Assembly (NCBI GenBank): GCA_019721035.1
Contig: JAHEAA010000018.1
Coordinates: 1-42,518 of the forward strand
Source: Candidatus Sysuiplasma acidicola
Lineage (GTDB): Archaea; Thermoplasmatota; Thermoplasmata; Sysuiplasmatales; Sysuiplasmataceae
Length of the DNA stretch: 42,518 nt
Direction of reading: 5' to 3'
The notes below the pieces were generated by a model that was not told the origin of the DNA, searched no databases, and saw only the letters and a list, made by a program, of their open reading frames with translations. Position numbers and translations under genes: made by a program. Below, piece by piece: positions 41,299 to 42,518 of this stretch; within the stretch, counting starts at the first letter, position 1; each line of letters opens with the position of its first letter.

Positions 41299-41723
41299 AT
41301 TGCAGACCCGCTTGCTGTTTTAAGCAGATATACTACCGTTTCATAAAGGTAGAGTACGGATAGAAGTGTACATAATCTGAAGTAATTTATATAGACATAT
41401 TCATATAAAATATTTAACGATCGGTGCTGGCGTGACTTTATTGCTTTTTTATGATTTTGATTCGGAAAGTATTGCAGAAATGGCTTCAGGAACCTGTCAA
41501 AATCACTATCTGATTTGTTGAAGGCTTTGATAGCAAAAAATGGACGGAATTACCTGGTTTTTCACGTCTGCCTCAGTAAATTCACAACACGAAGCGTACT
41601 TTTACGATAGATATTTCTTTCACAAAACCCGGCATCAGTACATGAGCAAGACATGCTTGCTTCATTGAAATTTTCACAGAATTTCTCGTAAAAACAGTAT
41701 TGGAAAGGATTACATTGCGGGAA
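41299..41723. other. AT-rich intergenic region at the left flank of an insertion sequence
   Basis: About 425 bases hold no supportable gene. Base composition is clearly more AT-rich than the flanking genes, with runs such as AATTTATATAGACATATTCA. It includes the hisS promoter at its left end and a small hairpin CTACC...GGTAG (about 41333-41352). The left boundary of the transposable element probably lies in here, but the terminal repeat cannot be identified without the right end. Confidence 0.6.
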
Positions 41724-41790
41724 GGCATCTCATCCCGTTGAAAAGAATTTTCTCTCTCTCTTTAAACGTCTTCGAACGGGATGGGATGCC
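41724..41790 (+). promoter_or_regulatory. Inverted repeat enclosing the TATA box and covering the transposase start
   Basis: GGCATCTCATCCCGTT (41724-41739) and AACGGGATGGGATGCC (41775-41790) pair over 16 bp with a single T·G wobble. The 35-nt loop contains TTTAAA (41761-41766). Expected transcription starts near 41786-41790, at the ATG at 41786. A transcript from this promoter would lack the left arm; a transcript from outside would carry both arms and bury the start codon. Confidence 0.7.
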
Positions 41791-42082
41791 CATGAGTGAG
41801 AGGAAGATAGAGAACGAAGTACAAAAACATATTCTCGGCTATTTGGGCAGTGGTTTTTCACTGCCGCTGAGTGCGTGCGCGCAGTATACGGAGAAGGAAC
41901 ACCTTGATGTGCTCATCAAGTGCGCAATGGATCACGGCTACATACAGGGAACGGCCAGGAGGCTCAGGAGCAACTGGGAACTGCCGCTGCCGTCCGGCTG
42001 GACGGTCAGACGGCTGCTGATCAGAAAGGACGCGGGCCGGCTGGCGGAAGAACTGCAGGCGGTAAATTTGGCAGTGCTCTAG
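41786..42082 (+). pseudogene. DDE transposase, N-terminal part, ended by in-frame TAG
   Basis: This is the first part of an insertion-sequence transposase. The frame is open from TTG at 41738. ATG at 41786 or 41792, fitting a leaderless mRNA from the TATA box at 41761, is likelier. The sequence (NEVQKHILGYLGSGFSLPLS, then YIQGTARRLRSNWELPLPSG) matches by eye the helical N-terminal region of archaeal IS4-like/ISH transposases. It ends at TAG (42080-42082). The very same frame continues after the stop into the catalytic domain, so this looks like one gene with a nonsense codon. Confidence 0.7.
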
Positions 42083-42518
42083 AGTGCACGCAGGATGGGG
42101 CTGTTCAGGAATCCTGTCGTATGTGCAATAGACAGTTCAGACACAGAGTATTACGGCGAAGGGGATACGCTTGTTGTCGGTGGAAAGCAGAAGAACGGAA
42201 CGAACAGTTTCCACCGTGTCAGCACGACCGTACCCGTCTCCGGAGGAATAAAGTTCGACCTCGGCATGGTTGTGAGGAAGCCGATGGACAGCGACACGGA
42301 CGCGATAGCCGCACTCATCGGAAGTTCGTCCGTGTATGTCAATGTCTGGCTCTATCTGCTGGACAGGGGTTTCCGTTCTGCAGAGAACTGGAAACTGTTC
42401 GACGGCATGGGGAAGCATTACCTCATGCCCTATCCCCACGACGACAGGATAGAGAGGGAAATCAGGAAGACAGCGGGGCTGTCCATGCGCATAATCGGCA
42501 ACTACGAGGTAAAGGGCA
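42083..42518 (+). pseudogene. DDE transposase, catalytic part, continues beyond the window
   Basis: In the same frame after the TAG the sequence reads SARRMGLFRNPVVCAIDSSD, then EYYGEGDTLVVGGKQKNGTN. It goes on to YLLDRGFRSAENWKLFDGMG and KHYLMPYPHDDR. AIDSSD holds the first catalytic Asp and LLDRGF the second. The final Glu would lie past the right edge. GGKQKNGTNSF and DRGF are strong marks of archaeal IS4-type DDE transposases. ATG at 42095 could permit separate initiation of a truncated product. The right end, terminal repeats and target duplication are not visible. Confidence 0.8.

Follow-up and report, generated by a model that had tools for sequence, protein, structure and literature searches.

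A co-varying hairpin at the transposase start of archaeal ISH3-like and IS256-family insertion sequences as a candidate lock on read-through translation

Near one end of a contig of Candidatus Sysuiplasma acidicola, a transposase gene begins beside a long inverted repeat, and this raises the question of whether the repeat could keep the transposase silent when transcripts enter the element from the host. The initial annotation of the 42,518-nucleotide stretch of DNA analysed here (the window) had proposed such a function. By sequence, the element is an ISH3-like insertion sequence (IS) of a Ca. Sysuiplasma-type archaeon and a divergent relative of ISH3: the model NF033541 (ISH3) matches the partial frame in the window (E 6.3e-13, 48.5 bits) and the transposases of a related group, group B below (E 2.8e-36 and 2.1e-40), in all cases below the 225-bit equivalog cut-off. 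The nearest relatives of the window transposase are found in Ca. Sysuiplasma superficiale and in another Thermoplasmata MAG, and no relative of the element was found in the viral contigs searched. The window copy has the following features.

41631 to 41635, no strand: GGCAT, a possible 5-bp target duplication, judged from the adjoining left end
41636 to 41648, forward strand: left terminal inverted repeat CAGTACATGAGCA, complementary to right-end TGCTCATGTACTG / GCTCATGTACTG in L011 and L083
41724 to 41739, forward strand: left arm of the hairpin, GGCATCTCATCCCGTT, by pairing; kept as GGCATTCCATCCCGTT in G001:C13 and G003:C27
41740 to 41774, forward strand: 35-nt loop, containing a pyrimidine tract
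41761 to 41766, forward strand: TTTAAA in the loop, probable TATA box of the transposase promoter, at -31 from the ATG at 41792
41775 to 41790, forward strand: right arm of the hairpin, AACGGGATGGGATGCC, by pairing
41786 to 41788, forward strand: in-frame ATG inside the right arm (ATGCCCATG, found in all four group A 5' ends), possible alternative start
41792 to 42082, forward strand: 5' portion of the ISH3-like transposase gene, 96 codons between the conserved ATG and an in-frame TAG
42080 to 42082, forward strand: the in-frame TAG that breaks the window copy; related copies have a sense codon here
42083 to 42517, forward strand: transposase frame continued (DDE region) to the contig end, NF033541 matching over residues 36-226 of the read-through frame

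Homology between the window element and the copy in G003:C27 starts at about 41636, and 5-bp target duplications are present in related groups. The idea that the left arm of the hairpin is itself a terminal inverted repeat was ruled out, since the left IS end lies at about 41636 and the arm is internal. Only the left end of the window copy is present in the assembly, the matching right end being absent. Contig C10 ends in a 3' fragment that was considered as the continuation of the window copy and ruled out by its flank (ATACA, not GGCAT); this fragment is probably another copy. The transposase frame is open on both sides of the TAG at 42080-42082 and the contig stops inside the gene at 42518, so that the window copy is broken and the hairpin observed in it belongs to a dead element.

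The 16-bp inverted repeat described in the initial annotation is real: 15 of the 16 positions of its arms form Watson-Crick pairs, and the remaining pair, T41730/G41784, would be a U·G in the sense RNA. It is the sole inverted repeat scoring at least 12 in the whole window with loops of up to 60 nt, and when the local sequence was shuffled 300 times with dinucleotides preserved, its score of 15 was never reached. When repeats overlapping the start codon were scored in 319 host genes, drawn from the window and a further 400 kb of its genome, none reached 15; the maximum was 13 and only two genes scored 12 or more, one of them an IS256-family transposase (see below) and the other a misplaced start within a purH-like gene. 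An Rfam search gave no match at gathering score, the only hit being a chance-level microRNA match (21 bits vs. 86). The annotation had also placed the start codon in the right arm, which applies to the in-frame ATG at 41786 and not to the start codon conserved in relatives, ATG 41792, which lies just 3' of the arm with one base between. The TATA box that it placed in the loop is probably the TTTAAA at 41761-41766. This hexamer lies 31-26 nt 5' of ATG 41792, and TATA-like words in the host peak at about -32 to -27 in a positional count, which was used in place of motif learning because the latter yielded no clean host motif. From the position of the box, transcription is predicted to start at about 41788-41792.

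The best explanation of these features, which we hold with moderate confidence, is that the start hairpin would act as a read-through-proof lock on translation of the transposase, as in IS10, IS50 and IS200. We infer use of the promoter in the loop, folding of the RNA in the cell and an effect on translation, as follows. A polymerase starting from the element's own promoter would begin at about the ATG and would produce a leaderless mRNA that lacks the left arm and could be translated. RNA arriving from a host promoter would contain both arms and could fold into a 16-bp stem ending 1 nt 5' of the AUG, with the second in-frame AUG inside it, hiding the start region. Insertion beside an active host promoter would then not switch on transposition. 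In related groups the hairpin would instead cover a start led by a Shine-Dalgarno sequence (SD), with the start codon lying in the right arm or the loop and the SD within the loop or next to it.

Comparison with the closest copies (group A) agrees with this picture. Both arms are kept in all related group A copies with an intact 5' end (G001:C13 and G003:C27), in which the single U·G sits one position from that of the window copy, and the TTTAAA is found at about -31 in all three copies that retain the promoter. The absence of the left arm from other copies, which the initial annotation had named as evidence against its proposal, is seen only in G003:C53, which has lost all sequence upstream of the TATA box together with part of the right arm and is therefore a truncated relic. 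Within group A the loop is nearly as conserved as the arms, and evidence from co-variation is accordingly thin at this level. Several further features of group A were observed. The arm motif occurs a third time, as a direct copy immediately 3' of the stop codon (GGCATTCCATCC, GGTATCCCACCCC and GCATCCCTATCC; L083, which is the end of G000:C10, L011 and L008). In the elements for which the distance was determined, this copy lies 178-181 nt from the right end, and as RNA it might base-pair with the start region. A small hairpin after the stop codon, with compensatory changes, is conserved in groups A (L083, L011, L008) and B (L018, L015, L020): ACTGTTCATGACAGT, GCTGTTCATGACAGC, ACGGTCCATGACCGC. 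In L009 (G003:C27), an unrelated open frame resembling a surface protein continues in frame from a 5' fragment of a group A transposase (about 190 codons).

Group B, a sister ISH3-like subgroup from the same genus and a neighbouring one, has transposases about 40% identical to those of group A, terminal inverted repeats CAGTAGTCCCGCATA/TATGCGGGACTACTG and target duplications TACCC and TCAGG. Its hairpin (AGAGTGCATTCCAGTG-TTTGGAGG-CATTGGGATGCACTCT) lies directly over the ATG with a stem of 11-16 bp, and in most copies the 8-nt loop contains the SD GGAGG. The group B copy in the window's own genome folds at -30 kcal/mol (z -5.5), and one G004 copy has a weakened stem. The arms of groups A and B look homologous (GCATTCC...GTTG), with an inter-arm spacing of 34-43 nt in A vs. 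8-14 nt in B. No clear third arm copy was seen in group B.

The more distant ISH3-like group E comes from a different family within the phylum (G487, G506, G420, G566 and G401) and has the target duplication TAGTA. A strong start hairpin is present in every group E copy with a complete 5' region, deletion derivatives excepted; distinct hairpin sequences have folding energies of about -25 to -38 kcal/mol, and their stems, some with one-sided bulges, differ in sequence yet pair. In a MAFFT alignment of seven sequences, from which the G401 hairpins were excluded for the covariation count owing to a shift of one base, 94.6% of the cells in the outer helix are paired and four of its eight pairs have changed on both sides. 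The covariation score was reached in one of 500 shuffles and falls when the helix is slid. The deletion derivatives L138, L140 and L144, found at several sites, have lost the start hairpin and start codon between GGCAAA repeats. Among them, L138 (G401:C2) is a miniature element of about 0.45 kb that retains both terminal repeats and shows the 5-bp duplication AAAAT. That it has lost the hairpin is what one would predict for a structure with a role in expression rather than in transposition.

The main surprise is that the start hairpin, as far as sequence can tell, recurs in two unrelated IS families, ISH3-like and IS256. The IS256-family transposase emerged as a high scorer in the host-gene control without having been selected beforehand, and is useful evidence for that reason. 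The element (G000:C5, comparison element M) matches Transposase_mut (PF00872) with an E-value of 2.2e-73, over the curated cut-off, and its start-codon hairpin CCCTGTRCCTTCA...TGGAAGYACAGGG is found with compensatory changes in most relatives from the genus and family, 83.8% of the cells being paired, with further double changes. A TATA-like box lies upstream, and the outer left arm falls between this box and the predicted start, which would lie in the loop. The check that the initial annotation had suggested, conservation and compensatory changes of both arms in related copies, is thus strongly borne out between IS groups. A universal presence of the hairpin in ISH3-like elements is not supported: most distant copies from the phylum Thermoplasmatota score at chance with the assigned start, many of these having longer frames and uncertain starts, and of seven haloarchaeal ISH3-family elements only two are above local controls. 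One haloarchaeal ISH3-family element, L192 on a Natribaculum luteum plasmid, has near position 641 a 10-bp hairpin without mismatches, whose short loop holds the ATG, together with the terminal-repeat-like CAGTAGTTGC.

The predicted geometry is shared by all four groups (A, B, E and IS256), although the promoter assignment is weak in B and E: judged by the TATA-box position, transcription would start either past the left arm or inside the hairpin, so that an RNA started internally would lack all or most of the left arm. With assumed leader lengths for the internal transcripts, the predicted cost of opening positions -12 to +10 in read-through vs. internal RNA is 11.5-12.1 vs. 0.5-2.1 kcal/mol in group A, 20-21 vs. 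9-10 in B, 14-26 vs. 6-9 in E and about 14 vs. 4-6 in IS256. The median for host genes is 8.7 kcal/mol, and group A falls between the host 75th and 90th percentiles. By predicted opening cost group A would be the weakest lock and, being leaderless, it may also need a lock least; since any 5' extension already hinders leaderless initiation, the hairpin of group A may be a second, partly redundant lock. Groups B and E and the IS256 elements look SD-led, with the logic as in the bacterial cases. The adaptation to leaderless translation put forward in the initial annotation thus fits group A only, while most relatives have the SD in or beside the loop.

Co-variation by itself fits both an RNA hairpin and a palindromic operator whose half-sites evolve together, and the operator is the main rival to the RNA lock. 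According to this explanation, which the initial annotation had also offered and which we consider unlikely and less likely than the lock, the arms are half-sites in the promoter at which the transposase or a host regulator represses transcription, and they change together with the specificity of the protein. Palindromes near the start site are typical of archaeal operators, and short ones lie between the TATA box and the ATG in two other IS-type genes, L008 (TGACTGCAG/CTGCAGTCA; minus strand near 1369-1400, TGACTGCAGTATACTGCAGTCA) and L185 (TACTGCA/TGCAGTA; near 80-100, TACTGCACCCATGCAGTA). The third arm-like copy, towards the right end of the group A elements, has the look of a DNA site, and the RNA lock has no need of it. 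An RNA hairpin should also tolerate G·U over A·C, and the mismatches over all groups are about equally common (27 G·T vs. 33 A·C); with no such bias, as an operator would have it, the strand test does not decide between RNA and DNA. The points for RNA are of another kind. The constant spacing expected of half-sites is not found between groups A and B despite their homologous-looking arms, and the one-sided bulges in group E would move one half-site only. The stems of 11-18 bp exceed what half-sites need, and the right arm is always placed on the start codon or SD region, running into the coding sequence.

Other explanations appear weaker. The arms might be subterminal transposase-binding sites required for transposition, as both lie at most 155 bp from the left end and group A has its third copy 178-181 bp from the right end; this is quite improbable, given that group B has no clear third copy and that the group E derivatives without the palindrome are found at new sites, one of them with both terminal repeats and a target duplication, so that the hairpin is probably not a transposition site. 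It is very unlikely, in our view, that transcription normally begins upstream of 41724 and gives a 5' leader whose hairpin is opened with the aid of an RNA or protein, a model put forward for ISPpu9. ISPpu9 does have such a leader (PMC8450116), and in Halobacterium salinarum loss of SmAP1, which may melt hairpins, lowers ISH3 transposition (PMC10134880); but the conserved position of the TTTAAA in group A fits a start after the left arm, and no comparable conserved box was established upstream of that arm. Finally, a chance repeat with no function is hardly credible. The fold of the whole region in its window context (-31 kcal/mol, z -1.5) stands out only slightly, but the repeat scores above all shuffles and all host genes, is kept in sister copies and co-varies in related groups, and the between-group co-variation already contradicts chance.

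Protection from read-through by a start hairpin is textbook knowledge for a few bacterial elements. In IS10 and IS50 of E. coli, one arm of an inverted repeat lies outside the native transcript, so that the initiation region is concealed by folding in read-through RNA only. The window element resembles them in that one arm is predicted to lie outside the native transcript, so that read-through RNA alone would fold. It differs in that IS10 and IS50 are bacterial and hide an SD, whereas here the element is archaeal, with the TATA box in the loop and a predicted leaderless start; the elements studied here also belong to other groups, ISH3-like and IS256-family. In IS200 of Salmonella, a stem-loop occludes the ribosome-binding site and the element is shielded from impinging transcription, while another stem-loop terminates incoming transcripts (PMC3196728); no such terminator was identified in the archaeal elements here. 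The transposase start region of ISPpu9 is likewise buried in a hairpin of the tnp leader, whose weakening raised reporter activity 26-fold (PMC8450116), but ISPpu9 has a long native 5'-UTR and two small RNAs, whereas the native mRNA of our elements is predicted to lack the left arm.

With the archaeal DDE elements of the ISH3 family (NF033541), our elements share a transposase match, below the equivalog cut-off, and, in related groups, terminal repeats and 5-bp target duplications, which lie in the 4-5 bp range of the family. No mention of a start-codon hairpin in the ISH3 family turned up in a literature search, nor, with most subscription papers beyond reach, any account of read-through protection by start hairpins in archaea. 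In an atlas of Halobacterium salinarum, the translation of IS transposases is argued to be under post-transcriptional control, and effects on ISH3 and IS4 transposition are reported with the mechanism left open (PMC10134880). The co-varying start hairpin of ISH3-like and IS256 elements offers a concrete and testable mechanism for such post-transcriptional control, and its leaderless form would be a new twist. As a more tentative proposal, start hairpins with the left arm outside the native transcript may be a general and repeatedly evolved safety lock of archaeal IS (ISH3-like, IS256 and perhaps IS5-type), serving SD-led genes and, with the TATA box inside the loop, leaderless ones. If true, a general lock of this kind would help to explain abundant archaeal transposase mRNAs whose proteins go undetected.
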